A stretch of DNA of 64,000 nucleotides from an uncultured Mediterraneibacter sp. (GTDB lineage Bacteria > Bacillota > Clostridia > Lachnospirales > Lachnospiraceae). How positions within the stretch are numbered: position 1 is the stretch's first letter; each line of letters starts with the position of its first letter. The stretch lies in the NCBI GenBank assembly GCA_944377745.1, contig CALWFV010000014.1:1-64000 (forward strand). The letters are read 5' to 3'. Position numbers and translations under genes: made by a program. The notes beneath the pieces were generated by a model. The model searched no databases, was not told the origin of the DNA, and saw only the letters and a program-made list of their open reading frames with translations. Positions 4,309 through 18,899 of this stretch are shown piece by piece.

Positions 4309-5315
4309 CAGATCAAAGCACTCCTTTCTTTCAGAGCTCTCTTCGCAGCAGAGCGTTCAGTGAATATGTTCAGGGCGACAGCCGCTATGATGATCGCACC
4401 CTGGATCGCATCAGACCATACGCTCAGGCCCGGAAGAAGGCTGATGAAGTATGTGATGACCGCCATCATAAGGAATCCGATGATCACGCCGTCTACTTTT
4501 CCTTTTCCTCCGGTGATGCTGACACCGCCGAGGATACAGATCGCGATCGCTGTCATTTCATAGGAATCGCCGATACTGTAGCTGCACGTTGCGTAGTTTG
4601 CCGTGTAGAGCATTCCTGCAAGCCCCGCCATCATACCGCAAATCGTCATTGCAAGGAATGTAACCCTCGCTTCCTTGATACCTGCGACCTGGGAGGATTC
4701 TTTGTTTGTACCGATCGCGTAGATCCGGCGTCCTCTCCTCGTATATCCCAGGAAGATGATCGCCAGGATAAAGACAAGGATCAAGATCCAGAGGATCGAC
4801 GGAAGCCCTATGATCTTCTTCGTGGCAAATGCCTGGTATCCTTCCGTGAACTGATGTGGGAACCACCATTCTCCGCCGCTGAACAGGAAGGAGAACCCGC
4901 GGAACGCGTACATCGTACCAAGAGTCGCGATCATCGGCACCATCTTGAAATATCCGACGATCAGACCGTTGAACGCGCCGCAGATGATGCCGATCACCAG
5001 CGCCAGCAGGATCCATACGATCGAAGGCACATCCGGGTTTTCCGCCATCAGCCGGCAGCAGACAACGCCGCTCAGTGAAAGTGTTGCCCCGATGGAGATA
5101 TCGATCCCACCGGTAAGGATCACCATCATCTCCCCTATTGCGAGGAGTCCATATACTGCGTTATTCTGCAGCATGTTTATAATAGAATTTACAGAGTACA
5201 TGGACGGCGTGATGATCGCCGCTATGATCAGAAGCACGATAAGACCGAGGATGAGACCGAAGTTTCTGCTCTCTGTAATTCTGGAAATCATTGATTTATT
5301 CTTATTTGCTCCCAT
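4308..5315 (-). CDS. CUT2 sugar ABC transporter permease
   Basis: 335 aa, a RbsC-family inner-membrane permease with about ten helices. It contains the family motifs GGIDISIGATLSLSGVVC and YEMTAIAICILGGVSITGGKGKV, the latter being the ATPase-coupling region. It lies 2 bp after the ATPase gene and overlaps the next permease by one base, so the genes form a tight operon. Two non-identical permeases followed by a binding protein match the RhaPQ arrangement of rhamnose importers. Unlike its partner it has only a short basic C-terminal tail. Confidence 0.87.
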   Translation of the reverse strand: MGANKNKSMISRITESRNFGLILGLIVLLIIAAIITPSMYSVNSIINMLQNNAVYGLLAIGEMMVILTGGIDISIGATLSLSGVVCCRLMAENPDVPSIVWILLALVIGIICGAFNGLIVGYFKMVPMIATLGTMYAFRGFSFLFSGGEWWFPHQFTEGYQAFATKKIIGLPSILWILILVFILAIIFLGYTRRGRRIYAIGTNKESSQVAGIKEARVTFLAMTICGMMAGLAGMLYTANYATCSYSIGDSYEMTAIAICILGGVSITGGKGKVDGVIIGFLMMAVITYFISLLPGLSVWSDAIQGAIIIAAVALNIFTERSAAKRALKERSALI

Positions 5316-5317
5316 TA

Positions 5318-6835
5318 TCAGCTCGCCCTCCCGTCTTCACTTGTATCATCGTGTTTCAGTGACGCTTCCAGGATCATTTCCTGAGTTGTTCCGTCGGACT
5401 CAAACTGTCCGGCAACGCGCCCATTCCTCATTACCACGATCCGGTCCGCCATACCAAGCACTTCCGGCATCTCGGAAGACACCATGATGATCGCGTAGCC
5501 GTTCGCGGTCAGTTCGTTCATGATCTCATAGATCGAGTACTTCGCGCCGACATCGATACCCTTTGTCGGCTCGTCCAGGATCAGGACTTTCAGGTCACAG
5601 TTCAGCAGCTTCGCAAATACGACTTTCTGCTGGTTACCGCCTGACAGAGAGGACGGCGGAGCGCTGATGTCCTTTGCTTTCAGCTGGATCTTCTGGCACA
5701 GCTCGATCGCTGATTTTTCTTCCCCGCTGACATCCAGCTTCCCTGCCTTGATGAACTTGTTCATATTCGCAGAAGAAACATTCTGGTAGATCGGCAGTTC
5801 GTTGATCAGTCCCTGGGTCTGCCTGTCTTCCGGGAGAAGTCCGATTCCCAGCTTCAATGCGTCGATGGGGCTCTTGATCTTTACATCTTTCCCTTCAAAC
5901 TCGATCGAGCCGGTGTCCGGGGTCATAATGCCGAAAATGTTCTGGCAGACTTCTGTACGTCCCGCACCGACCAGTCCGGTAAGGGCAAGGATTTCTCCCT
6001 TCCTCACATCAAAGGAAACATTTTTGAAATATCCTTCTTTAGATATGTTCTTTACTTTCAGTATCGTCTCGCCGATCTTCGCGTTCTTCGGCGGATACAT
6101 CTGGGTAAGTTCACGTCCTACCATCGCTGCGATCAGCTTCTGGTTGGAGATCTTGTCCACATCCCAGCATCCTATGTACTTGGAATCACGGAATACGGTA
6201 ACCCTTGTCGCCAGGCGGTACATATCTTCAAATTTATGTGTGATGAAGATAATGGAAACGCCTTCGTCCCTGAGCCTCTCCGTGATCCTGTACAGCTCCT
6301 CGCACTCTTTTCTTGAAAGAGAGGCTGTCGGCTCGTCCATGATCAGGATCCGTGCGTCTCTTGAAAGAGCCTTCGCGATCTCGACAAGCTGCTGCTGTGC
6401 AACAGAAAGTGTGCTCATCGGCTTTGAAACGTCGATGTTCTTACTCAGCGGTTCGATCAGCTCCTTTGCCTTCTTTGTCATCAGCTTCCAGTTGTAGAGC
6501 CCGACTTTGTTCTTGATCTCCTGTCCCATAAAGATATTCTCTGTGACAGACAGATCCGGGAATGCCGTAACATGCTGATAAATTGCGGCGATCCCGAGTT
6601 TCGCGGAATCTTCCGTGGAGCGGAGAGTGATCTTCTCGCCTTCAAGCAGCATCATTCCGCTGTCCGGCTGGTGCACGCCTGTGATTACTTTAATGAATGT
6701 AGATTTTCCGGCTCCGTTCTCTCCCATAAGAGCATGGATCTCGCCTTTTTTCAGCTGAAAATGTACCCCGTCAAGAGCAGTGACTCCGCCAAAGGTTTTT
6801 ACAACGTCTTTCAGCTCCAAGATATACTCACTCAT
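5318..6835 (-). CDS. CUT2 sugar ABC transporter ATP-binding protein (two nucleotide-binding domains)
   Basis: 505 aa, the usual length for RbsA/RhaT-type duplicated ATPases. Domain 1 has Walker A GENGAGKST near residue 38, signature LSVAQQQLVEIAKAL and Walker B ILIMDEPTASLS. Domain 2 has a degenerate P-loop (GLVGAGRTE), the signature LSGGNQQKVVFAKLL and Walker B LILDEPTKGIDVGAK. A degenerate second P-loop is normal in this family. It energises sugar uptake through the two downstream permeases. ATG at 6835 follows GAAAGGGGAAAAGAG. This is the first gene of the operon, which diverges from the AraC regulator at 7121. Confidence 0.9.
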   Translation of the reverse strand: MSEYILELKDVVKTFGGVTALDGVHFQLKKGEIHALMGENGAGKSTFIKVITGVHQPDSGMMLLEGEKITLRSTEDSAKLGIAAIYQHVTAFPDLSVTENIFMGQEIKNKVGLYNWKLMTKKAKELIEPLSKNIDVSKPMSTLSVAQQQLVEIAKALSRDARILIMDEPTASLSRKECEELYRITERLRDEGVSIIFITHKFEDMYRLATRVTVFRDSKYIGCWDVDKISNQKLIAAMVGRELTQMYPPKNAKIGETILKVKNISKEGYFKNVSFDVRKGEILALTGLVGAGRTEVCQNIFGIMTPDTGSIEFEGKDVKIKSPIDALKLGIGLLPEDRQTQGLINELPIYQNVSSANMNKFIKAGKLDVSGEEKSAIELCQKIQLKAKDISAPPSSLSGGNQQKVVFAKLLNCDLKVLILDEPTKGIDVGAKYSIYEIMNELTANGYAIIMVSSEMPEVLGMADRIVVMRNGRVAGQFESDGTTQEMILEASLKHDDTSEDGRAS

Positions 6836-8115: not shown

Positions 8116-9261
8116 TCACCACAGATTTTTATAAATGTTGATCACATCCGCCTTGCTGGGAACCCTCGGATTCGTCGCGGTACATGCATCAGCCAGCGCC
8201 GCGTCCGCCATCCTGTCGATCGCACCGAAATACTCTTCTTCCGAGATCGTCCCCATCTGTGAGATAGAAAGCGGGATGTCCATCTCCTTGAGCATGAACT
8301 GCACCCAGTTCACCAGGGATCTCACTGTCATGATCTTGTTGTAGCTGCTCAGCCCCAATATCTGAGCTACGGTAGAATACCGCTTCACCGCCGGCAGATA
8401 CTCCGAGCGGCTCTTGCTGTGTTTGTTGATATCACTGTTAAACTCAATGATATGGGGGAGCAGCATCGCATTCGCACGCCCGTGGGGGATATGGAACGTA
8501 GCGCCAAGCTGATGCGCCATCCCATGATTCAGCCCCAGGGAAGCCGCATTGAACGCCAGCCCCGCCAGACAGGATGCCGAATGCATTTTCTGCCTTGCAT
8601 GTGTATCGTTCCCGTCCAGATATGCTCTTAAAAGGAATACGCCGCAGATCTCGATCGCTTTCTCTGCGAGTGCTGTGGAAAAATCACTGCGGTTGATGCT
8701 CACGCACGCCTCAAGCGCATGAGTGAACACATCCATCCCCGTATCCGCCGTCACAGCCGGCGGGACACTCTTTACCAGCTCGGCATCCAGGATCGCCTCA
8801 TCCGGCGTCATGGTGTAAGAGACAAGCGGATACTTCACCTGCTCCGCCGGATCTGTCACGACTGCAAAAGAAGTCACTTCAGAGCCGGTGCCGCTGGTCG
8901 TCGGGATCGCGATCAGCCCCACGTCCCCGTAGTGGTCCACCCGCAGGGCGAACTCGCGGATAGATTTAGAGGAATCGATAGCGGATCCCCCGCCAACTGC
9001 CACAATCGCATCCGGGCGGTACTCCAGCATCTTCTTTACCCCTTCGCTGATCTTCTCGATCGGCGGGTCCGGAACGATATCCTTAAAGATATCATACTCT
9101 TTCCCCCCGCGCTTCAGCGGTTCCGTTACAAGGTTGAGCATTTTATTCTCAGCCATGAAGGGATCCGTGACGATAAGCACCTTGTCATACGGGATCTCGG
9201 CAAGACGGTCAAGCGCCTGATCCCCGAAATAAATTTTTGTTTTAATGTCAAAGCTTTTCAT
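8116..9261 (-). CDS. pduQ: Iron-containing alcohol dehydrogenase, PduQ-like (lactaldehyde / propionaldehyde reductase)
   Basis: 381 aa, type III iron ADH. Residues 85-105 hold the NAD-binding GGGSAIDSSKSI, followed by IPTTSGTGSEVTSFAVV and the metal site (DTGMDVFTHALEA, LNHGMAHQLGATFHIPHG). It resembles the propanol dehydrogenase of propanediol compartments and also lactaldehyde reductase FucO. Here it would reduce lactaldehyde to 1,2-propanediol or propanal to propanol, regenerating NAD+ inside the shell. It is the last gene of the leftward BMC operon, 13 bp after the DeoR gene and before a strong terminator. ATG has the binding site AGAGGAAGG. Unlike the other cargo enzymes it shows no obvious N-terminal targeting helix. 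Confidence 0.85.
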   Translation of the reverse strand: MKSFDIKTKIYFGDQALDRLAEIPYDKVLIVTDPFMAENKMLNLVTEPLKRGGKEYDIFKDIVPDPPIEKISEGVKKMLEYRPDAIVAVGGGSAIDSSKSIREFALRVDHYGDVGLIAIPTTSGTGSEVTSFAVVTDPAEQVKYPLVSYTMTPDEAILDAELVKSVPPAVTADTGMDVFTHALEACVSINRSDFSTALAEKAIEICGVFLLRAYLDGNDTHARQKMHSASCLAGLAFNAASLGLNHGMAHQLGATFHIPHGRANAMLLPHIIEFNSDINKHSKSRSEYLPAVKRYSTVAQILGLSSYNKIMTVRSLVNWVQFMLKEMDIPLSISQMGTISEEEYFGAIDRMADAALADACTATNPRVPSKADVINIYKNLW

Positions 9262-9274
9262 AACTGACCTTCCT

Positions 9275-10045
9275 CTATTCGGGATAGACGCACTCTATTC
9301 CCGAATCTTCAAATACCTGAAGCCATTTTGCCTCCGGCTTTTCATCTGTGATAACAGTTGTAATATCTTCCAGATTTCCTATTTCTGTAAATGCAACCTT
9401 ATCAAATTTACTGCTGTCAACAGCAAGTATCTTATCTCTCGCCGATTCAAGCATTGTCCTTTTGTTGTTTGCATGCAGATCATCAGAATCCGTAAAGCCG
9501 GCTGTGATATCGATCCCCTTGCAGGATATGACCGCTTTGTCCACATGATAATTTTTCAGCATCTTATCCGTCTGCGGACCGACCAGCGCAAATGAACCTT
9601 CCCGGGATACCCCTCCGGTCGAAAGGATCGTCCAGTCCTGGGCGTCAAACAGTTCGATGAGGATCTCGATCGAGTTCGTTATGATCGTGAGGTTTTTTCT
9701 TCCTCTCTCCTGAAGCGCTTTCGCGATATATACTGCTGTGGAACTTGCGTCAAGCATGATGCTGTCCCCGTCGCGGACCCGGTCGGCAACCTGGGACGCG
9801 ATATGCTGTTTCCCGACTATATTACGGTTTTTTCTGATATTAAAGGGCAGGTCAATGTTGATGTTCTCATTGATGACAGCGCCGCCGTAGCTTTTGATCG
9901 CATATCCGTCATTGACCAGCTTTTCGAGATCTCTCCGGATCGTCTCCTCGGAAACATCGTAAATCTGGCTCAGCTCGCTGACAACAACTCTTCTGTCTGT
10001 CTGCAGTTTCTCCAGTATTTCGTTTCGTCTTTCTATAGCTAGCAT
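9275..10045 (-). CDS. DeoR-family transcriptional repressor of the BMC operon
   Basis: 256 aa. The N-terminal DeoR helix-turn-helix (RRNEILEKLQTDRRVVVSEL, then SEETIRRDLEKL) is followed by the DeoRC sugar-phosphate sensor domain with the characteristic STGG, DS and HANNKRTML motifs. Such proteins usually sense a phosphorylated intermediate such as rhamnulose-1-phosphate. It is encoded within the BMC transcript, 160 bp after pduT and 13 bp before pduQ, so it probably regulates its own operon. Good candidate operators are the CAACACCTG-like sites beside the two promoters near 18.9-19.06 kb. The start is supported by AGGAGG. Confidence 0.85.
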   Translation of the reverse strand: MLAIERRNEILEKLQTDRRVVVSELSQIYDVSEETIRRDLEKLVNDGYAIKSYGGAVINENINIDLPFNIRKNRNIVGKQHIASQVADRVRDGDSIMLDASSTAVYIAKALQERGRKNLTIITNSIEILIELFDAQDWTILSTGGVSREGSFALVGPQTDKMLKNYHVDKAVISCKGIDITAGFTDSDDLHANNKRTMLESARDKILAVDSSKFDKVAFTEIGNLEDITTVITDEKPEAKWLQVFEDSGIECVYPE

Positions 10046-10206
10046 CTCACTGCCTCCTGCCTGTTAGTTCAAGACTCGCACAGGAGTCTTCCCCATCTGA
10101 TAAAACAGACTCCCGCACCGCTCTTATCATGCTTCGGCACGCTTGCCGCAAGAGTGCATGTAAAGCAGGTGGAGAGCCTGTACTTTCATTCCCTGTTCAG
10201 CTTTGA

Positions 10207-10755
10207 TCAGAGTATCGCATCACGAATCTGCGCATCCGGATGAGCGATAACGGAGGAATCAAGGAACATTCCTCTGTCTTTGATCGATTCTTTCGCCCTC
10301 TCGATCGCCGCTTCAACTGCAGCGACCTCGCCGGTCAGAAGCATGTAGGACTTTCCGCACATTCCTCTTGCGATACGCAGCTCGATCAGATCTACTATGG
10401 CTGTCTTTGCAGCCTCATCGGCCGCAACGATGATGGAAGCCGCATCATATGTCTCCAGGATCCCAAGCGCTGACACGTCCTCGATCTGAGCCGCGCCATA
10501 GATTGCCGGGAAGATGGATTCATGTGGGTTGCCCAGCACAAAACTGTCGATCAGATGGAAGCCGTGCAGTTCTCTGGCATTGTCAACTGCCGCCTTAACA
10601 GCGCTTAAGTCTCCTGTAATGATCGCAATATATTTGCCCGGACATACGGTCTGTGCTTCTATTATACTGACTTCAGAGGTCTTTACCATTGCATCGGCAG
10701 CGGTGATACCTGCTGAAACAGTCTTATATTCTACCATTCCAATTGCCTTACTCAT
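10207..10755 (-). CDS. pduT: Tandem-BMC-domain shell protein, PduT-like, with a probable iron-sulfur pore Cys
   Basis: 182 aa with two BMC folds in a row (residues 1-90 SKAIGMVEYKTVSAGITAAD.., residues 95-182 ALGILETYDAASIIVAAD..), forming a pseudohexameric trimer in the shell. The first domain holds TVCPGKYIAIITGD; in PduT of Salmonella the equivalent Cys binds a [4Fe-4S] cluster at the three-fold pore. The adjacent PduS gene supports an electron-transfer pair across the shell. ATG at 10755 is preferred to GTG at 10764 because of AGGAAGG spacing. It overlaps the PduS stop by 8 bp, so translation is coupled. Confidence 0.85.
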   Translation of the reverse strand: MSKAIGMVEYKTVSAGITAADAMVKTSEVSIIEAQTVCPGKYIAIITGDLSAVKAAVDNARELHGFHLIDSFVLGNPHESIFPAIYGAAQIEDVSALGILETYDAASIIVAADEAAKTAIVDLIELRIARGMCGKSYMLLTGEVAAVEAAIERAKESIKDRGMFLDSSVIAHPDAQIRDAIL

Positions 10756-12094
10756 TGCCTGCACGTCCTTCCTGAGTTTCTATGATAACATATTTCTCAT
10801 TTACTTCAGTCACTGTTCCGGTAACCGACGCATGGATCCCCACGCTCAGACCTTTCCCCGGTTCAGCGATCATCTGGCCTTTTGTTACTTTATCGCCCTG
10901 TTTCACGATCGCCGACGCCGGCGCGCCGATATGCTGGCTCAACAGGATCCTGACTTTCTTTACCTTCACCTCAGACTCATCCAGAGGCGCTTCTCTGTTA
11001 TATTTTGTCAGGTCAAGCCTTGCCATCAGCCGCTCCATCGGAACCTTCCTGTACTCTCTCTCGGGTCCCACCGGCTTTGCTTCCACCTTCGGAGCACGGA
11101 TGCCGTTTGCCCTTAAGCCTGCTTTGTATTCTGCCATAAGGCTTCTCGGTGAGAGCCCCTGGAAGCAGGAATACATCTCGCAGAGTCCGCAGGAGGAACA
11201 GAACATCGTGTTTACAAAGATATTCGGCTCCTGTATATCTTTACAGGTCGCTGCAAGCATGAATCTGTTCGGTTCGATCGGATGGCCGAGAAGATGTCTC
11301 GGACACAGATCCGTACACATTGTGCACTGACAGCAGCATGCTGCCGCGCGCTTCATATCGATCGAATTCTTTTTCAGTTTTTTCTGTATGATAAAATGGT
11401 CTTCCGGAAGTACCAGGATCGCATTCGTCGTCTTTGTCACCGGCTGCGCGCCTGTCCCAATATTACCCATCATCGGTCCGCCTACAAAATAGACCGGATC
11501 CGGAGTCGTCACGCGCCCTGCGCAGGCAACTACTTCGTCGAGAGGCGTTCCGATCGGGACTCGTACAGTAACAGGATTCTCAACTTCTGCAACTACAGAT
11601 ACAAGTTTATCCACGACAGGAGTTTTCTCATGAACAGCCCTGTATACGTTGTAAACGGTTTCAACATTAAATACGGCTACGCCGCTCTCGATCGGCAGCC
11701 CTCCGGGTCTTACCACTTTCCCTGTCACCTCATAGATGAGAACGACCTCATCACCTGCAGGATATACTTCATCCAGAAGCCCCAGTCTTGCCTCCGGATA
11801 CTTTCCGATCACAGCCTCAACTGCGGCTATTGTCTTCTTATAAGCTTTTTTGATCCCGATGATGATCTCTTTTGCACCTACGGTTTCTCCGATCATATGG
11901 AATGTATCTACGATCTCCTCCGCGTGCTTTTCCAGAAGCTGTCTGTGTAATCTCAGAAGCGGTTCACACTCTGCACAGTTCAGGATGATCGTCTCTGCAC
12001 GCTCGTCCAGCTTTGCGTATGTCGGAAAGCCGGCGCCGCCTGCACCCACGATCCCGTTCTGCTGCAGGATGCCGCTCAATTCTTTCATATCCAT
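10748..12094 (-). CDS. pduS: PduS-like flavo/iron-sulfur protein (RnfC family)
   Basis: 448 aa. The N-terminal RnfC/NuoF-type nucleotide-binding region begins GIVGAGGAGFPTYAKLD. An SLBB domain lies in the middle. Two ferredoxin-like clusters follow near residues 250-310 (CCQCTMCTDLCPRHL and CSSCGLCEMYSC), and the C-terminus is a barrel-sandwich domain. In propanediol compartments PduS is a cobalamin reductase. With no B12 enzyme here it more likely moves electrons between the lumen and outside, with PduT. The open frame extends to 12286, but ATG 12094 has GGAG ahead and fits family length. It starts 8 bp after the vertex-protein gene. Confidence 0.88.
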   Translation of the reverse strand: MDMKELSGILQQNGIVGAGGAGFPTYAKLDERAETIILNCAECEPLLRLHRQLLEKHAEEIVDTFHMIGETVGAKEIIIGIKKAYKKTIAAVEAVIGKYPEARLGLLDEVYPAGDEVVLIYEVTGKVVRPGGLPIESGVAVFNVETVYNVYRAVHEKTPVVDKLVSVVAEVENPVTVRVPIGTPLDEVVACAGRVTTPDPVYFVGGPMMGNIGTGAQPVTKTTNAILVLPEDHFIIQKKLKKNSIDMKRAAACCCQCTMCTDLCPRHLLGHPIEPNRFMLAATCKDIQEPNIFVNTMFCSSCGLCEMYSCFQGLSPRSLMAEYKAGLRANGIRAPKVEAKPVGPEREYRKVPMERLMARLDLTKYNREAPLDESEVKVKKVRILLSQHIGAPASAIVKQGDKVTKGQMIAEPGKGLSVGIHASVTGTVTEVNEKYVIIETQEGRAGNE

Positions 12095-12101
12095 AATCTC
12101 A

Positions 12102-12368
12102 CTACTCCAGTCCTGTTCCATCGTCAATAATTCCAACGATCGCCGCATCGACCGGGGCGTCCGGCATGCCGCTTCCGATCCTTGCCGCGCTGCCCTGTGC
12201 CACGAGCACATACTCTCCGATACCGGCGCCGATCTTATCGATTGCAATGAGTTGTTTTGCACCGGACTGCATATGTTCCAAAACATCCACGATCATAAAT
12301 TTATTGCCGACTAAATTTTCACATTTGCGTGTTGAAACAACGCTTCCGACGACCTTCCCTATCAGCAT
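12102..12368 (-). CDS. pduN: BMC pentameric vertex protein (EutN/CcmL/PduN family)
   Basis: 88 aa, exactly the family size. Features are MLIGKVVGSVVSTRKCENLVG, the KFMIVD strand, and the IDKIGAGIGEYVLVAQGSAAR motif that lines the pentamer interface, ending in VDAAIVGIIDD. It caps the twelve vertices of the shell. It overlaps the PduL stop by 7 bp and is followed almost at once by pduS. Confidence 0.92.
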   Translation of the reverse strand: MLIGKVVGSVVSTRKCENLVGNKFMIVDVLEHMQSGAKQLIAIDKIGAGIGEYVLVAQGSAARIGSGMPDAPVDAAIVGIIDDGTGLE

Positions 12369-13012
12369 GATATGATCCTCACGGTATCTCCGGTCGCGAT
12401 CTTTGCTGCGTTCGCCTCGTCTGTATCGATGTGCATCTCAAGCGTGAAGCTGTCGTCCACACGGATCTGTACATTATTGAAGATCGTTCCGCGCTCGTTA
12501 TCCGCTTTCACGGAAACGATATCGCCGTCGTGTACTCCTGCCGCCATAGCGTCGCGGGGAGACATGTGGATATGTCTCTTTGCGATGATGCATCCCTCAT
12601 CCAGGTAGATCGCACCTTTCGGGCCAACAACCGCGATCGGTGCGGATCCCGCTACATTTCCGGATTCTCTGATCGGCGCTTTCACGCCAAGTTTGATGGC
12701 GTCTGTAGCAGATATCTCAACCTGAGTCTGTTTTCTCACAGGACCCAGAACTCTGACATTTTCAATCGCGCGGAGCTTGAGTCCGACGATCGTGACCGTC
12801 TCATTTGAAGCGAACTGTCCGCCCATCAGCTCTTTCCTTTTTGTGAGCTGATATCCTTTTCCGAACAGAGCCTCCACATGCTCCTGTGTAAGGTGGATAT
12901 GACGCGCGGACACTCCGATCGGCACCAGATATCCCGCGTCATCAGAAGTTTTCTGTTTCTCAACCGCTTCCAGGACCAGTTTTGTAATTAATGCCACATT
13001 ACTGTTATCCAT
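12362..13012 (-). CDS. pduL: PduL-type phosphate acyltransferase
   Basis: 216 aa. Two zinc-binding repeats carry the family His residues (VSARHIHLTQEHVEALFG and KRHIHMSPRDA). It exchanges CoA for phosphate on acyl-CoA made by the aldehyde dehydrogenase, recycling CoA in the lumen and releasing an acyl-phosphate for ATP synthesis. Residues 1-20 (MDNSNVALITKLVLEAVEKQ) form an amphipathic helix followed by a short linker, a typical encapsulation peptide. The AAGGAG site lies 9 bp before ATG. Its substrate here may be propionyl-CoA or lactyl-CoA. Confidence 0.92.
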   Translation of the reverse strand: MDNSNVALITKLVLEAVEKQKTSDDAGYLVPIGVSARHIHLTQEHVEALFGKGYQLTKRKELMGGQFASNETVTIVGLKLRAIENVRVLGPVRKQTQVEISATDAIKLGVKAPIRESGNVAGSAPIAVVGPKGAIYLDEGCIIAKRHIHMSPRDAMAAGVHDGDIVSVKADNERGTIFNNVQIRVDDSFTLEMHIDTDEANAAKIATGDTVRIISC

Positions 13013-13035
13013 ATTTCAATTCTCCTTGTAGTTAC

Positions 13036-13070
13036 AGGGAACCGCGGAGGAGGTTCCTCCGGGGTTCCCC
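13036..13070 (-). promoter_or_regulatory. GC-rich hairpin between the shell genes and pduL
   Basis: A strong imperfect inverted repeat (GGGAACC, GGAGGA and their complements) lies just ahead of the pduL ribosome binding site. There is no U-tract on the operon strand. It may stabilise the upstream shell-gene mRNA or lower read-through into pduL. Confidence 0.5.
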
Positions 13071-13127
13071 GAATGATCATTTACAGTTCAGTCTTTCGAC
13101 CTGTGTGGCTGTTACCGCACAAGTATC

Positions 13128-13532
13128 TTATTTCAGAACCGGGAGAATCTTCTCAACGTCTGTATGCGGTCTCGGGATCACGTGTGTAGCTACGAGCTCG
13201 CCGAGTCTTCCTGCTGCCTCAGCTCCGGACTCAACTGCTGATTTCACTGCTCCAACGTCTCCGCGAACCATAACTGTTACAAGTCCGCTTCCGATCTTTT
13301 CTGTTCCTACAAGAACAACGTTAGCAGCTTTTAACATTGTATCTGCCGCTTCGATAGATGCTACAAGACCTCTTGTTTCGATCATTCCTAATGCTTCCTG
13401 TGCCATTCTTCGTTCCTCCTTCTGAATCTCCGGTACGCTCTCCTGTACCTGTTCTGCCTTCTGCGCCGTCTTTCTTACTCTCCGTACAGTTTTGGCGGGC
13501 GCTTTGGCTGTTGTTTTCTTTTCCTCTGCCAT
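13128..13532 (-). CDS. BMC-H shell protein, PduA/J type, with N-terminal extension and a probable internal second start
   Basis: The full reading frame gives 134 aa. The first 42 are a Lys/Arg/Ala-rich extension ([20 protein letters not shown]..), followed by a standard hexameric BMC domain ([20 protein letters not shown].., [26 protein letters not shown]). Both starts have good ribosome binding sites: AGGAGG 9 bp before ATG 13532, and AAGGAGG 8 bp before ATG 13406, inside the frame. Two products of 134 and 92 aa are therefore expected. This parallels PduB/PduB' of Salmonella, where the longer form links shell and core. Here it occurs in a BMC-H gene, which I do not recall as usual. Confidence 0.88.
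13406..13421 (-). promoter_or_regulatory. Internal ribosome binding site and second start codon in the shell gene
   Basis: AAGGAGG at 13415-13421, then 8 nt, then ATG at 13404-13406, all inside the long BMC-H frame. The protein made from here ([13 protein letters not shown]..) begins exactly where ordinary PduA/J proteins begin. Confidence 0.75.
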
Positions 13533-13545
13533 TTTAAACTGCCTC

Positions 13546-13830
13546 CTAACTTACACGGTTTGCGCTGCTGTTTACGATCTTGAGCACTTCCTCGTGAGGA
13601 CTCGGGATCACAACACGGCAAACCGGTTCTTTTATTCCGTTCGCTGCGGCAGCTTCAATGGCCTGCTTTACAGCGGATACGTCGCCGCGGATGATGATCG
13701 TGACCAGTCGTCCGCCCAGTTTCTTCTCCCATGTGACAAGCTGCACATCTGCGGTCTTGCACATGATATCGATGGCAACCACCGCTGCCGTTACACTCGG
13801 GATTTCAAAAAACCCATACGCTTTTCCCAT
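13546..13830 (-). CDS. BMC-H shell protein
   Basis: 94 aa, a single BMC domain ([54 protein letters not shown]). It is more divergent from the other small shell proteins: the usual GMIETRG is replaced by GFFEIPS and a Lys-rich loop (TWEKKLGG) precedes the pore strand, so the pore is probably different in charge. The start is supported by AAAGGAG. The gene lies 13 bp upstream of the dual-start shell gene in transcription order. Confidence 0.9.
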
Positions 13831-13866
13831 GAGACTGCTCCTTTACACTGTTGATGACGGACTATA

Positions 13867-14148
13867 CTAGATCGTAGGAAGGATCTTCTCCACATCGTTG
13901 TGCGGTCTCGGGATCACGTGTGTAGCTACGAGTTCTCCAAGTCTTCCTGCAGCGTCAGCGCCTGTCTCAACCGCTGCCTTAACTGCTCCTACATCCCCGC
14001 GTACCATAACCGTTACAAGTCCGCTTCCGATCTTCTCTGTTCCGATCAGTGTAACCTCAGCCGCTTTTGTCATTGCATCTGCAGCCTCGATCGCTGCCGT
14101 AAGACCTCTTGTTTCAATCATTCCTAATGCCTGCTGTGCCATTGCCAT
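13867..14148 (-). CDS. BMC-H shell protein, PduA/J type
   Basis: 93 aa, the canonical hexameric shell tile ([57 protein letters not shown]). The sequence is almost the same as the BMC domain of the gene at 13128-13406, so the two are recent paralogues and should mix in the shell facets. AGGAGG lies 9 bp before ATG. It has no N-terminal extension. Confidence 0.93.
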
Positions 14149-14161
14149 TGTTCATTTCCTC

Positions 14162-14515
14162 CTAAATCTCTTCAATATCTTTGTCATTGATGATATGCGG
14201 CTCACCTTTATCCAGCCCGGTGAGTTTCAGCATTTTTTCCGTATCCTCTGTCGGTCCGGTGATCTCATACTCGTTCACAACGCCTGCCAGCTCCTCGGCT
14301 CTCGCCTTTGCCGCTTCAAGCGCCGCCGCAACATCGGATACGCTTCCGCGGAATTTGACCATGACGATCAGTGGTACGGGCAGTTCATCTGCATTTGCCG
14401 GTTTGTTTTTATCGAAGGTCTCAAGCCATACATTTCCGGCTTTGCATCCGGCGTCCGCCGCCGCAAATGCCGTTGCCAGCCCGAACACCTCCAGCATACC
14501 TACTGCTTCTCCCAT
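14162..14515 (-). CDS. BMC-domain shell protein, longer variant
   Basis: 117 aa. It starts like other BMC-H proteins (GEAVGMLEVFGLATAFAAADAG) but has a long insertion in the pore-side loop (FDKNKPANADELPVP) before VKFRGSVSDVAAALEAA, and a C-terminal tail of about 25 residues. These changes suggest a special pore or a facet-edge role. It is the first shell gene after the alcohol dehydrogenase, with an AAGGTGA binding site. Confidence 0.85.
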   Translation of the reverse strand: MGEAVGMLEVFGLATAFAAADAGCKAGNVWLETFDKNKPANADELPVPLIVMVKFRGSVSDVAAALEAAKARAEELAGVVNEYEITGPTEDTEKMLKLTGLDKGEPHIINDKDIEEI

Positions 14516-14526
14516 AATAAATCACC

Positions 14527-15735
14527 TTATTTATTAACGATCGCGATCTTAAGACCTTTCTGTGCAAGATTCGTCTCGTGAGCCTCGTTGATCTCCTCCA
14601 GCGGGAACCGGTGTGTGATCAGTTCTTTCATCGGAAGCCCGATCGCCTGCGCTCTCTTAAGGAAATCAAATGTGGTCGCGTAATCTCTCAGTGTGTATAC
14701 CCAGGATCCGACCAGGTTGATCTCTTTTGAGCAGAGGTCAAAGTGCGGGTTGATCGTTGCGTCGCCGCCGTTGATGAAGAACCCCAGCTCGCAGAGTCCG
14801 CCGCCGTTACGGATGAACTTGTAAATGTTAGAGTGAGCTGCCGGTGATCCGGTGCACTGGAATGCGAAGTCGGCAAGATGTCCGCCGAACGCATCCTTTA
14901 CTGCTGCCGAAAGTGCTTCGATCCCTTTGTACTCCATGAAGTTTACTGATTTCTCAGCGCCCATCTTCTTTGCAAACTCAAGTCTCTGCGGATTTCCGTC
15001 CACTGCTACGATATTTTCTACGCCGAGTGTACGGAGTACTGCGATGCAGATCAGACCGATCGGTCCGCATCCCTGTACCACAACTCTGCTGTTGAATCTC
15101 AGGATGCCTGTCGTCTTTGCTCTCTCTACTGCATGTACAAGGACTGCACATGGCTCGATCAGGATCCTCGAGTCGAGATCCAGGTCGCTTACGTTGAATA
15201 CAGAAGATCCTTCACGGATGAAGATGTAATCTGAGAACCATCCGTTCAGGTGGATATCGTCATCCGGAAGAAGTCCGTATACGTCAGCGCCGCCTACGTT
15301 CTTCTTGTTCAGATCGAACATCTCGATATCCGGATCATCTTTAAAGATCATACATGTTACAACTTTATCGCCGACTTTCAGCGGTTTTCCTGCGCTGTCT
15401 GTCTTGACGTTCTTTCCCATCTTCACGATCTCGCCGGTTCCCTCATGTCCGAGCGCTACCGGGATCAGTCCGAAGGGATCTTTCTTAAACTCGTGTGCGT
15501 CTGTTCCGCAGATACCGCATCCCTCTACCTTTACAAGGATGTCTCCGTCTCCAACTTCCGGGATTGGGAACTCTTTGATATCATAATGACCGAGTGATGT
15601 GAGCATTGCGACATGCGCTGTCTTCGGGATCGCCTGGCTTGAAGCCGGGGCGGATGAAGACGGGATCTTCTTGTCGAGCATGCTCTCAAGTACCTGTTTT
15701 ACAACAGCTTCCACGTTAGCGGAATTCATTTCCAT
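14527..15735 (-). CDS. Zinc-type medium-chain alcohol dehydrogenase with encapsulation peptide
   Basis: 402 aa. Residues 1-20 (MEMNSANVEAVVKQVLESML) form an amphipathic targeting helix, then a Ser/Pro/Ala linker. The catalytic GroES-like domain contains CGICGTDAHEF and GHEGTGEIV, and the Rossmann fold has VVQGCGPIGLICIAVLR. The usual four-Cys structural zinc lobe is not visible: after DKVVTCMIF the sequence runs through Asp-rich residues. It likely reduces lactaldehyde or propanal, in parallel with PduQ. It follows the 81-bp repeat region after the aldehyde dehydrogenase. AGGAGG precedes ATG. Confidence 0.87.
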   Translation of the reverse strand: MEMNSANVEAVVKQVLESMLDKKIPSSSAPASSQAIPKTAHVAMLTSLGHYDIKEFPIPEVGDGDILVKVEGCGICGTDAHEFKKDPFGLIPVALGHEGTGEIVKMGKNVKTDSAGKPLKVGDKVVTCMIFKDDPDIEMFDLNKKNVGGADVYGLLPDDDIHLNGWFSDYIFIREGSSVFNVSDLDLDSRILIEPCAVLVHAVERAKTTGILRFNSRVVVQGCGPIGLICIAVLRTLGVENIVAVDGNPQRLEFAKKMGAEKSVNFMEYKGIEALSAAVKDAFGGHLADFAFQCTGSPAAHSNIYKFIRNGGGLCELGFFINGGDATINPHFDLCSKEINLVGSWVYTLRDYATTFDFLKRAQAIGLPMKELITHRFPLEEINEAHETNLAQKGLKIAIVNK

Positions 15736-15772
15736 GTTATCTACCTCCTATTATCATCAGGATCTTACTTTT

Positions 15773-15993
15773 CGCCGTGCCAGCTCGATTCCGCTTTGCT
15801 TCATCTCGCTGATGGCGTGCGCCATATGCTTACGCTTCGGTATTCAACGCTTCCGCCGTGCCAGCTCGATTCCGCTTTGCTCCATCTCGCTGATGGCGTG
15901 CGCCATATGCTTACGCTTCGGTATTCAACGCTTCCGCCGTGCCAGCTCGATTCCGCTTTGCTCCATCTCGCTGATGGCGTGCGCCATATGCTT
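15773..15993. repeat. 81-bp tandem direct repeats (2.7 copies) inside the BMC operon
   Basis: Copies start at 15773, 15854 and 15935. The unit begins CGCCGTGCCAGCTCGATTCC; copies 1 and 2 differ by about one base and copy 3 stops after about 58 bp. Since 81 is divisible by three, the same short frame on the minus strand (MAHAISEMEQSGIELARR, then stop) recurs in each copy, but no ribosome binding site precedes it. The region separates the enzyme genes from the alcohol dehydrogenase and shell genes within one transcript. Confidence 0.9.
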
Positions 15994-15997
15994 CCGT

Positions 15998-16044
15998 CAT
16001 GAAAAATATGTATCTGCAGGCTAGCCTGCATACATATTTTCATG
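15998..16044. promoter_or_regulatory. Long hairpin directly after the aldehyde dehydrogenase gene
   Basis: An almost perfect inverted repeat of about 22 bp (CATGAAAAATATGTAT..TGCAGGC and its complement) has only one or two bulges. It begins 16 bp after the aldehyde dehydrogenase stop and runs into the tandem repeats. There is no U-tract, so it may be a processing or mRNA-stability site rather than a terminator. Confidence 0.7.
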
Positions 16045-16059
16045 CCGTAAGCGCACGGC

Positions 16060-17448
16060 TTAACGTATGCACAGGCTGTCAGTCATTACGCAGCGTCTTC
16101 TCTTTGTGAATGTGCTTGCGCTTGTAAGGCCTTCGCCTGTCCGGCTGGCGATAGTAAAGGTACAGAACCCTTCCCCGCCGAAGCCGAGCGCCGCATAGGA
16201 CGGTCCGTTCTTCACAAGGATCGCCGTGTCGATGGCTTTCGCATATTTTGTAATATTGTCAATGTTCTTTGAGTGGATGTGTGCGGAGTGGCGGTTGCCG
16301 TGTTCGAGCCATACAGCCTGCTCCACCGCGTCGTCAAAATCTTTCGCTCTTACCACGCCGAGGATCGGCATCATAAGCTCTGTCGTGATCAGCGGATGTT
16401 CCTTCGGTCCCTCAAATGTGATGCATCTGATGTTGTCCGGAACTGTCACTCCGATCATGCCGAGAAGCGTCTTCGCATCGCGTCCGACACATTTTCTGTT
16501 CAGTTTGCCGTCCTTGAGGACTACTGAGACGAGAGCGTCCTGCTCTTCTTTGGAAGCCAGGTAACATCCCTGCTCGCTGATCATATAATGCATCAGCTCG
16601 TCCACAACGGAATCAACTGCCACGATCTCTTTCTCCGCGATACAGGGAAGGTTGTTGTCAAATGTACATCCGTTTACGATGTCCTCCGCTGCCTTCCTGA
16701 GATCAGCCGTCTCGTCAACAACTGCCGGCGGATTTCCCGCTCCCGCGCCGATCCCTCTCCTTCCGGAAGAAAGAACCGCTGTCACGACGCCCGGTCCTCC
16801 GGTTGCCGCGATGAGCTGGATCGCTTTGTGCTTCATCATGATGTTGCTCGTCTCCAGCGTCGGATGCTCAACCGTGCATGCGATATTGTCCGGTCCGCCC
16901 GCTTCAAGTGAAGCTTCATTCAGAAGATTGATGGCGTAGATCGAAGTCTTGATCGCTGCCGGATGCGGATTGAACACTACCGTGTTGCCGGCCGCAAACA
17001 TTCCGATAGTATTGCAGAGGACTGTCTCGCTGGGGTTTGTACACGGTGTGATCGCGCCGATCACTCCGAAAGGTCCCATCTCGATCAGGGTAAGCCCTCT
17101 GTCTCCTGACCATGCCGTTGTCGTGATATCCTCCGTTCCCGGAGTCTTCTCTGCGACAAGGATATGTTTCAGGATCTTATGTCCGACATTTCCCATGCCG
17201 GTCTCCTGCACGCCCATACGCGCCAGGATCTCTGCGTTCTCCTTGATCTTTTTACGGATATTGGAGATTACTTTTTCTCTGTGGTCCAAAGACATCCTTG
17301 CAACGATCTTCTGTGATTTCTTCGCTGCCTCGATGGCCTCGTTCATGTCAGCGAACACACCGTGCGTCCCTGACACATCGGAAGCGATCTGCATCTTCGC
17401 CATCACTTCCTGCACGATATCCTGGATCATCTGTTCGTTTACAGACAC
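16060..17448 (-). CDS. pduP: CoA-acylating aldehyde dehydrogenase, PduP-like, with encapsulation peptide
   Basis: 462 aa. The catalytic Cys is in FDNNLPCIAEKE (about residue 272), preceded by the GAGNPPAVVDET coenzyme-binding loop. Residues 1-18 (MSVNEQMIQDIVQEVMAK) are an amphipathic targeting helix. It oxidises lactaldehyde or propanal with CoA to the acyl-CoA, which PduL then converts. The start is GTG at 17448, with AGGAGG 7 bp upstream, and it overlaps the end of the PduO/GlcG-like gene by 10 bp. Length and motifs match PduP/EutE. Confidence 0.92.
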   Translation of the reverse strand: MSVNEQMIQDIVQEVMAKMQIASDVSGTHGVFADMNEAIEAAKKSQKIVARMSLDHREKVISNIRKKIKENAEILARMGVQETGMGNVGHKILKHILVAEKTPGTEDITTTAWSGDRGLTLIEMGPFGVIGAITPCTNPSETVLCNTIGMFAAGNTVVFNPHPAAIKTSIYAINLLNEASLEAGGPDNIACTVEHPTLETSNIMMKHKAIQLIAATGGPGVVTAVLSSGRRGIGAGAGNPPAVVDETADLRKAAEDIVNGCTFDNNLPCIAEKEIVAVDSVVDELMHYMISEQGCYLASKEEQDALVSVVLKDGKLNRKCVGRDAKTLLGMIGVTVPDNIRCITFEGPKEHPLITTELMMPILGVVRAKDFDDAVEQAVWLEHGNRHSAHIHSKNIDNITKYAKAIDTAILVKNGPSYAALGFGGEGFCTFTIASRTGEGLTSASTFTKRRRCVMTDSLCIR

Positions 17449-17960
17449 TCTAATACCTCCTTAAAGACTTCCTTCCCGTAAGCCGCGATGGCGGTGTCCT
17501 GCGCCGCGCTCCCGCCGCTTACCCCAAGCGCTCCGATGATCTCTCCGTCATACTCAAGAGGCTCCCCGCCTCCGAAGATCACGATCTTTCCGTTGTTTGT
17601 AAACTGGACTCCGTAGAGGTCCTGTCCCGGCTGGCTCAGATGGCCGAGCTGCTCCGTGGACATCTTCAGGCTTGCGGAAGTATAAGTCTTATTGATCGCA
17701 ATGTCAAAGCTTGCTATGTATGCATCGTCCATGCACTGGACCGCTACAGGCCTTCCGGCCTTGTCCGAGACGGCAATGACCACATTGACCCCCATCTCGG
17801 CCGCCTTCGCCTTCACGCGCTCGATCAGCGCATTGGCGAGCGCAAGGCTCATTGCATGCTTTTTACATTTACAGACATGTTTTTTTTCTGTCTGAGGCGC
17901 CTTCTCTTTCATCTGATCCAACACGGCTCTCACCGCATTGGTGATATCCTGTTCATTCAT
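17439..17960 (-). CDS. PduO C-terminal / GlcG-type protein with encapsulation peptide
   Basis: 173 aa. Residues 1-18 (MNEQDITNAVRAVLDQMK) look like a targeting helix, followed by a Cys/His-rich linker (KHVCKCKKH). The remainder is a GlcG/HbpS fold (IAVSDKAGRPVAVQCMDDAY, DIAINKTYTSASLKM, GGGEPLEYDGEIIGALGVSGG). This domain is the C-terminal half of PduO and binds haem in some relatives, but the corrinoid adenosyltransferase half is absent, in line with no B12 enzyme in the cluster. The function in the compartment is unknown; redox or cofactor handling is a guess. Confidence 0.8.
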   Translation of the reverse strand: MNEQDITNAVRAVLDQMKEKAPQTEKKHVCKCKKHAMSLALANALIERVKAKAAEMGVNVVIAVSDKAGRPVAVQCMDDAYIASFDIAINKTYTSASLKMSTEQLGHLSQPGQDLYGVQFTNNGKIVIFGGGEPLEYDGEIIGALGVSGGSAAQDTAIAAYGKEVFKEVLECL

Positions 17961-18001
17961 AGCTGTGCCTCATTTCATCGGTTATTCAAACTGCGTCAGG
18001 A

Positions 18002-18814
18002 TTACATTCCAAGCTGTTCCATAACTTTCTTTGTGATGGAAGCAACCAGATCTGCATCCGTATTGCCTGCTGCCGGAGCTGCTGCCTTGCTGCAGGATCC
18101 GCCGCATGTATGGCAGCTCGGTTTGCCAGCCTGTGCGTTCGGGCAGAGGTTTGCCGGATGTTTTCCCGGAAGACCCATCTGTCTTCTGATCTCGTACAGT
18201 CTCTGTACCTGCTCCTCGCTGAATTCCTGCGGTCCGCCGATCTGCATTGTCTGCCATAACAACTGAGCGTAGAACTCTACGGACTCCATCTTCATGTATG
18301 CAGCGAGAAGGCTGTCAGAGAAGGTCAGGGCGCCGTGGTTCTCAAGGAGAACTGCGTCAAAGTGCTCAAGATACGGCTCAACTGCGTCCGGGATCTCCAT
18401 TGTAGAAGGTGTTCCGTAAGGAGCGATCGGAACGCATCCCAGTGCGATGACAGCTTCCGGCATGATCGGCTGTGTCAGCGGGATTCCTGCAATAGCAAAT
18501 GTTGTCGCGTACAGCGGATGTGCATGTACAACAGCGTTGACATCCGGTCTCTTCTGATAAACACGCATGTGCATCTTGATCTCGGATGAAGGTCTGAATC
18601 CTTTGTTCGCCTGAAGGACATTTCCGTTCTCGTCAACCTTGCAGATATATTCCGGTGTCATGAATCCTTTGCTGACACCTGTCGGCGTACATAAGAACTC
18701 GTGGTCATTAAGTTTTACAGAGAAGTTACCGTCATTTGCGGCAACCATTCCGCGGTTGTAAACTCTCCGGCCGATCTCACACATTTCTTTTTTGATTTCG
18801 TATTCGTTTTGCAT
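18002..18814 (-). CDS. Class II aldolase (rhamnulose/fuculose-1-phosphate type) with C-terminal encapsulation peptide
   Basis: 270 aa. The aldolase II domain (residues 1-205) has NDGNFSVKL, the catalytic Glu in PSSEIKMH, zinc ligands in VHAHP and a third His in ENHGAL. It splits rhamnulose-1-phosphate or fuculose-1-phosphate into dihydroxyacetone phosphate and lactaldehyde. After the domain comes a Cys-rich linker (CPNAQAGKPSCHTCGGSC), an Ala/Pro spacer and a final helix (DADLVASITKKVMEQLGM) that matches the N-terminal helices of the other cargo enzymes. This is the first gene of the BMC operon. ATG 18814 follows AAGGAGGAGAAGAG; an upstream in-frame start at 18892 lies within the promoter and is rejected. 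Confidence 0.88.
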   Translation of the reverse strand: MQNEYEIKKEMCEIGRRVYNRGMVAANDGNFSVKLNDHEFLCTPTGVSKGFMTPEYICKVDENGNVLQANKGFRPSSEIKMHMRVYQKRPDVNAVVHAHPLYATTFAIAGIPLTQPIMPEAVIALGCVPIAPYGTPSTMEIPDAVEPYLEHFDAVLLENHGALTFSDSLLAAYMKMESVEFYAQLLWQTMQIGGPQEFSEEQVQRLYEIRRQMGLPGKHPANLCPNAQAGKPSCHTCGGSCSKAAAPAAGNTDADLVASITKKVMEQLGM

Positions 18815-18870
18815 CTCTTCTCCTCCTTGGATTTTTACAAAACATTTTGTTTTGTGTTGTTTCTTTTTGC

Positions 18871-18899
18871 ATATTACCACACAATCCCACAATAGTCAA
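18871..18899 (-). promoter_or_regulatory. Proximal promoter (P2) of the BMC operon
   Basis: TTGACT (18894-18899) and TAATAT (18871-18876) are 17 bp apart on the minus strand, about 57 bp upstream of the aldolase start. A CAGGTGTTG site begins 6 bp upstream of the -35 (18906-18914, plus-strand reading), and the motif GTGTTGTT recurs at 18854 and 18909. Confidence 0.7.

Follow-up and report, generated by a model that had tools for sequence, protein, structure and literature searches.

Operon organisation of the locus

The window analysed here is the whole 64,000-nt stretch of contig CALWFV010000014.1 from an uncultured Mediterraneibacter sp. An operon at 8116-18892 on its minus strand combines shell genes with aldolase and dehydrogenase enzymes. 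In the order of transcription, its genes are as follows:

18002-18892, minus strand: class II aldolase, likely a fuculose/rhamnulose-1-phosphate aldolase, with a C-terminal encapsulation-peptide-like helix
17439-17960, minus strand: HbpS-like protein with an N-terminal encapsulation-peptide-like helix
16060-17448, minus strand: aldehyde dehydrogenase of the PRK15398 subfamily (above the cut-off), presumably CoA-acylating, with an N-terminal encapsulation-peptide-like helix
14527-15735, minus strand: zinc alcohol dehydrogenase with an N-terminal encapsulation-peptide-like helix
14162-14515, minus strand: BMC-domain shell protein of 117 aa
13867-14148, minus strand: plain BMC-H paralogue of 93 aa, without a tail, its tile 85% identical to that of the tailed gene
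13546-13830, minus strand: third BMC-H gene of the block, 94 aa, directly upstream of the tailed gene
13128-13532, minus strand: tailed BMC-H gene, treated in the next section
12362-13012, minus strand: PduL-type phosphate propanoyltransferase with an N-terminal encapsulation-peptide-like helix
12102-12368, minus strand: BMC-P (EutN/CcmL) pentamer
10748-12286, minus strand: RnfC/PduS-like electron transfer protein, which we take to be PduS partly from the gene order
10207-10764, minus strand: PduT-like BMC-T (best model TIGR02526, below its cut-off)
9275-10045, minus strand: DeoR-family regulator
8116-9261, minus strand: iron-containing alcohol dehydrogenase

The PduS-like ORF shares its 5' part, in a different frame, with the BMC-P gene; thus, the PduS start at 12286 is probably wrong and the true start probably lies further downstream. 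The class II aldolase, aldehyde dehydrogenase, PduL, PduS, PduT and DeoR genes that mark GRM5 were all found together with BMC shell genes, PduS and PduT being assigned partly by gene order. The glycyl-radical propanediol dehydratase that also marks GRM5 was not found beside the operon. Judged by its gene content, the operon is a fucose/rhamnose-type shell operon and GRM5/PVM-like. PVM-like loci have been described as possible GRM5 fragments (PMC4207490). The genome itself contains one PFL-like gene on another contig (C13:60778-62550). Unless that gene encodes a glycyl-radical propanediol dehydratase, a fucose/rhamnose shell operon may work without this enzyme. A tandem array of 2.7 copies of an 81-bp unit (99% matches) was also observed at 15773-15993, between the zinc alcohol dehydrogenase and aldehyde dehydrogenase genes.

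Two in-frame starts in the tailed BMC-H gene

The gene directly before PduL contains two SD/start pairs in one frame, an arrangement of the PduB type. Its features, all read from the sequence, are as follows:

13128-13532, minus strand: long form, 134 aa (ATG 13532-13530)
13128-13406, minus strand: short form, 92 aa, a canonical BMC-H tile (ATG 13406-13404)
13407-13532, minus strand: 42-residue basic tail
13542-13547, minus strand: SD of the long start, AGGAGG, with a spacer of 9 nt, overlapping the TAG stop (13548-13546) of the upstream BMC-H gene
13415-13421, minus strand: SD of the internal start, AAGGAGG, with a spacer of 8 nt, within the coding sequence (codons AAG GAG G..)

These features bear out the initial annotation, which had proposed two in-frame starts with a ribosome binding site each, AGGAGG for ATG 13532 and AAGGAGG for ATG 13406. 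The context of the internal start reads AAG GAG GAA CGA AGA ATG in frame. Translation of the long form is probably coupled to that of the shell gene before it, given the overlap between this gene's stop codon and the SD of the long start. Predicted pairing in the window was lower in the region of the internal start (0.41) than at the long start (0.70).

An AGGAGG located 5-11 nt upstream of an in-frame ATG at codons 21-125 was found in none of the 45 other SD-led genes of the window (0 of 115 ATGs). In loci of at least 7 kb, the same arrangement occurred in 5 of 741 genes (5 of 1894 ATGs), and one of these five, L215, is itself a tailed BMC-H gene that had been excluded by the composition rule given below. 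When the window gene alone was shuffled synonymously, an equally strong SD was restored in 28% of trials (0.28; not significant), because the Lys and Glu codons of its tail are about evenly split. The window gene is therefore no proof by itself, and the weight of the argument lies on the comparison with relatives.

Conservation of the internal start among relatives

The search for matches covered four sets of genomes. Of 99 relatives, 42 gave a match; the corresponding numbers were 90 of 392 for the order, 105 of 391 for the class and 97 of 398 for the phylum. In addition, the best 80 of 577 matches were taken from a named collection. E-value limits differed among the genome searches, and some genomes were shared between sets. 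The resulting 298 loci contained 419 distinct BMC-H ORFs, and in 170 of them the frame was open for 20 codons or more upstream of the tile. Forty-four of these were set aside before counting, either because C, F, H, L, W, Y and G made up more than 14.5% of the tail or because of a missing start codon, an X in the tail or a score below 120 bits, and the remaining 126 were counted. The composition rule is blind to the SD but builds a low aromatic content into the set of 126, and it wrongly drops at least L215, which has a glycine-rich tail with an SD. With their last eight residues excluded, the 126 tails fell into 90 clusters at ≤ 60% identity. As the loci were chosen by similarity to the window gene and by a long open frame, the tailed share among them is no estimate for BMC-H genes generally. 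A first pass over 57 ORFs, with AGGAGG in 47 and 7.5 expected, is superseded by the 126-ORF count. Two entries, L115 and L192, are one locus and were merged in the final locus counts.

A comparison of orthologues for the internal SD and start had been proposed beforehand, and both were conserved. An SD of at least 5 nt was found before the internal ATG in 122 of the 126 tailed ORFs and in 86 of the 90 tail clusters, and AGGAGG stood 4-12 nt before this ATG in 101 of the 126 genes. The four exceptions were L042 (AAGGGGG), L095 and L096 (no SD) and L210 (no internal start codon). L095, L096 and L210 may make the tailed form only. Synonymous shuffling within each gene produced an SD in 13.0 ± 2.9 of 90 clusters (maximum 22 in 300 shuffles) compared with the 86 observed; shared ancestry among the non-independent relatives inflates such conservation statistics, but the tails are at most 60% identical between clusters. 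A chance origin of the SD was ruled out by these shuffles across relatives, together with the rarity of the arrangement in other genes.

The Lys codon five positions before the Met and the Glu codon four positions before it were AAG or GAG in 149 of 151 cases, whereas each gene's own codon usage predicts 49.0 (z 18.5). Residue -3 was variable (E 52, V 16, D 7, K 7 and others; n = 90), yet its first base (nt -9) was G in 77 of 90 clusters, as is expected if the DNA rather than the protein is selected. Among the 12 residues preceding the tile, strong recurrence over the 90 clusters was confined to the final positions, which mirror the SD. From these codons, the conserved 'KEE' next to the tile is best taken as the protein shadow of AAGGAGG. 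Moreover, an in-frame start codon followed the internal SD in 125 of the 126 tailed ORFs, most often 8 nt past the motif and at the domain boundary. Median SD duplex energies were -11.0 kcal/mol for the long start, -11.7 kcal/mol for the internal start and -2.9 kcal/mol for in-tail controls (3028 windows), and the internal SD was stronger than the long-start SD in 58 of the 90 clusters, weaker in 29 and equal in 3. Tailed genes with an SD were also found outside the class (L249, L250, L287 and L289, in genomes with a kinship label). Since the SD is kept at synonymous sites among hypervariable tails, two-product translation is very likely conserved. For the window gene, translation of both the 134-aa and the 92-aa product appears highly probable on this comparative evidence.

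Composition of the tile and the tail

Residues 47-122 of the long form matched PF00936 at 105.3 bits (cut-off 24.5) as the only domain, in agreement with the earlier view that the long form is a normal BMC-H tile plus 42 residues (134 versus 92 aa). The second PF00936 domain of a PduB-type BMC-T is absent from the window gene, and the proposed likeness to PduB/PduB' holds, by sequence, as the same logic in a different shell class, namely a single-domain BMC-H and not a BMC-T. The motifs KAAN and PRPH, as defined in PMC8217296, are present in the 134-aa product. The best NCBIfam model for the tile was EutM (123.1 bits, below its cut-off of 133), and the best solved chains were an engineered tandem BMC-H fusion (6ner), followed by PduA chains. 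A gene 96% identical to the window gene was found in a locus of M. catenae (L149).

The tail was rejected as a known domain; no Pfam family covered its 42 residues, and the sole extra match on the 134-aa protein was COG4_N (E 0.078, below the cut-off). Its description as mostly basic and Ala-rich was fair but loose, given 12 K/R, 7 E and 6 A with a net charge of +5. In an AlphaFold2 model from a shallow alignment of 12 rows, tail residues 1-37 had a pLDDT < 50, but the core was also poor (pTM 0.34), and the prediction therefore adds little; from its composition and the low pLDDT, the tail is probably disordered. By an approximate rule of our own, the window tail contained no 14-residue amphipathic window, and thus no amphipathic core-binding N-terminal helix of the PduB type, whereas the five encapsulation-peptide-like ends of the operon were amphipathic under the same rule (scores 0.44-0.63).

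Across the 90 clusters, the tails were hypervariable, with a median length of 45 residues (20-123). They were composed mainly of K (21.7%), A (13.7%), E (13.3%) and T (10.7%), with aromatic residues nearly absent, partly as a result of the selection rule. The median net charge was +4, and 85 clusters were positive, 2 neutral and 3 negative. The amphipathic score over the tails had a median of 0.16, and 9 of 90 reached 0.45, that is, a helix-like amphipathic window. Among 32 related tails, dN/dS was 0.21, compared with 0.11 in the core (Nei-Gojobori, 496 non-independent pairs, last six codons excluded). The other two frames of the tails contained 639 stops in 8756 codons, frame 0 being open by construction. 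By these measures, the tail is under purifying selection as a protein.

Distribution and origin of tails

The 86 de-duplicated loci of at least 7 kb comprised 48 tailed and 38 untailed loci, with L215 wrongly counted among the untailed. By neighbouring enzyme genes, the tailed and untailed loci numbered 22 and 15 with an aldolase alone, 13 and 9 with GRE and an aldolase, 1 and 4 with GRE alone, 8 and 5 with PduG alone, 2 and 0 with PduG and an aldolase, and 2 and 5 with none of these in view. Pfam served to check the assignment of one GRE gene and four PduG genes, and the others were assigned by BLAST to those. The tail as a marker of aldolase compartments only was rejected, as 10 tailed loci had a PduG-like gene and 8 of these lacked a detected aldolase. 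Judging by gene content, tails thus appear to be linked to the shell block and not to any one chemistry.

A plain basal BMC-H gene was also encoded in 47 of the 48 tailed loci, so the need for a short form is not obvious. The exception was L191, from a MAG filed as L. phytofermentans, in which the tailed gene (4462-4953, plus strand) is the only basal BMC-H of the operon; here, the internal start would be the operon's only source of plain tile.

A tree of 287 tiles, itself poorly resolved, showed the tail label as clustered but with at least five changes on supported branches. The tail as a single clade was rejected on this basis, although many forks were unresolved, and gain or loss of the tail thus occurred repeatedly. 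Untailed genes among those listed begin where the internal start lies, which suggests that the internal start is probably ancestral and that tails were added upstream. Two further frames were observed among the loci. A 301-aa frame in L098 (minus strand) appears to contain three BMC-like domains in a row, the last being a basal BMC-H tile preceded by a GGAGG and ATG of its own; this could be a fusion or an assembly effect. A 222-aa frame in L046 (minus strand; 5308-5976 in reverse-strand count) encodes a BMC-H with a long Lys-rich C-terminal tail, similar in make-up to the N-terminal tails.

Comparison with known systems

Dual starts are already known for the BMC-T protein PduB and the carboxysome scaffold CcmM. 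PduB is a two-domain BMC-T encoded by one gene with two in-frame starts, and CcmM, unlike the window BMC-H, is an internal scaffold and not a shell tile. PduB, called a BMC-T in PMC10902431, resembles the window gene in that one shell gene has two in-frame starts and its longer product is extended at the N-terminus (residues 1-37, PMC12108088). However, the PduB extension acts as a core-binding signal sequence (PMC12108088), whereas the product of the window gene has a single BMC-H domain and a hypervariable basic tail that is expected to lie outside. The likeness to CcmM-58/CcmM-35 of beta-carboxysomes lies in an internal ribosome binding site that yields a long and a short form (PMC5784247). 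By title or the start of the abstract, no dual-start basal BMC-H was found in open-licence PMC literature among the matches listed.

The closest counterpart in position is Cphy_1182 of Clostridium phytofermentans, which occupies the same place in a fucose/rhamnose operon, before PduL (PMC3557285). Only its residues 73-161 align with PduA, implying an extension of about 72 residues; it is the only close PduA relative (similarity 90 versus 51 for Cphy_1180), and its expression value was 73.7 on fucose and 47.4 on rhamnose (PMC3557285, Table 1 for the expression values). The extension is visible solely as an alignment range in PMC3557285, where the passages on this gene discuss no second start. 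The tailed gene of L191, from the MAG under C./L. phytofermentans, encodes 163 aa and has an internal SD; its position as the sole basal tile there is in keeping with the PMC3557285 table. The window operon resembles Cphy_1177-1187; as given in Table 1 of PMC3557285, however, that locus has no separate plain tile and has the glycyl-radical enzyme Cphy_1174. PduK, EutK and CmcE are likewise BMC-H proteins with a long, largely unstructured extension, proposed for PduK to point outward and serve positioning (PMC9132943). Their extensions differ in being C-terminal, the most frequent location for BMC-H extensions in a 2021 catalogue (PMC8217296); the PduK extension may hold an Fe-S cluster and that of EutK a nucleic-acid-binding fold (PMC12058022), with no dual start mentioned in the relevant passages.

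Alternative explanations

A single product would result if the internal SD were a relic of an untailed ancestor or if the tail were an untranslated leader. The probably ancestral position of the internal SD and ATG, at the start of untailed genes, and the second gene for a plain tile in 47 of 48 tailed loci would both agree with this. However, a relic would decay at synonymous sites as tails diverge, instead of retaining AAG or GAG in 149 of 151 cases, and an open frame, a separate SD and a dN/dS of 0.21 do not fit an untranslated leader. We consider one product alone very unlikely. Alternatively, the main role of the internal SD could be to cause a pause or to provide spacing during co-translational assembly, and not to serve as a second start, given that it lies inside a frame that is itself likely translated. 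With an in-frame start codon behind it in 125 of 126 tailed ORFs, most often at a distance of 8 nt and at the domain boundary, this explanation is extremely improbable.

The initial annotation had further suggested that the ratio of the two forms could tune shell-core attachment. As in PduB, where residues 1-37 link the shell to the core and act as a signal sequence (PMC12108088), the tail would then reach into the lumen and tie the enzyme core to the shell. The encapsulation-peptide-like ends of the operon enzymes and the amphipathic window of comparable moment in 9 of 90 tails would fit such a tether. However, BMC-H extensions, whether N- or C-terminal, can lie on the concave face (PMC5534457), this face is outward, or cytosolic (PMC10902431), and the convex side faces the lumen (PMC6971018). 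The window tail itself has no amphipathic window, the tail median of 0.16 is well apart from the 0.44-0.63 of the five operon peptides, and strong recurrence in the last 12 residues ahead of the tile is limited to those that mirror the SD. Because of the outward N-termini described in the literature and the lack of an amphipathic helix in the tail, PduB-like tethering is the less likely function, and we regard it as quite unlikely; the suggested shell-core attachment is not supported. An electrostatic role on the outer face, in which basic tails around the pore attract anionic substrates, for instance sugar phosphates, or else bind membrane, nucleic acid or polyphosphate, would be in keeping with the net positive charge of 85 of 90 clusters (median +4, K 21.7%). 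Yet tails also occur in the 10 loci that carry a diol-dehydratase reactivase (PduG-like) gene; no aldolase was detected in 8 of these, and the substrate expected there is uncharged. Three of the 90 clusters are net negative and two neutral, which makes a universal nucleic-acid role doubtful. A positive outer face is described as an anion funnel in carboxysome BMC-H (PMC10902431), but the inner facet is the more positive one in the GRM2 shell hexamer (PMC6971018). Such an electrostatic role seems unlikely.

Proposed role of the tailed and tailless tiles

Likely, as a whole, is an explanation in which two versions of a tile are made from one mRNA and form mosaic hexamers with an outer bristle. 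Some ribosomes would start at ATG 13532, probably coupled to the upstream stop, and produce the 134-aa subunit with its basic, probably disordered tail, while others would start at the internal SD and ATG 13406 and produce the plain 92-aa subunit from the same mRNA. We infer that both products accumulate. Cross-interaction between canonical BMC-H paralogues is abundant (PMC12058022); together with the outward concave face, this leads us to expect mosaic hexamers with sparse outward tails. The long and short forms, and also the plain paralogue, would co-assemble, so that only some subunits carry a tail. As BMC-H N-termini emerge on the concave cytosolic side, the tails would form a sparse bristle on the outer face of the compartment, and the short form would dilute them so that facets could still pack. 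Spacing, positioning or contact with partners in the cytosol would be the most likely role of the bristle, and the outward flexible extension of PduK, proposed for positioning, offers a lead for its function. By this analogy, a sub-stoichiometric disordered bristle on the cytosolic face with a PduK-like role is our favoured, if tentative, candidate. More speculatively, the outer surface of clostridial compartments might be tuned by translation, which would set the ratio of tailed to tailless tiles in a generic brush and, with it, how many disordered bristles a mosaic hexamer bears on its cytosolic face; the dose and not the sequence of the tail would then be selected, with the ribosome binding site as its sole well conserved part and the remainder drifting as low-complexity sequence.

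If this explanation is correct, shell tiles in two forms would be common among those Clostridia of gut and soil that have compartments for fucose, rhamnose or 1,2-propanediol, and annotating a single start for each gene would hide one of the two products. The tailed gene would also provide a simple handle on the role of the compartment's outer face, as well as a natural way of decorating engineered shells below one tag per subunit.
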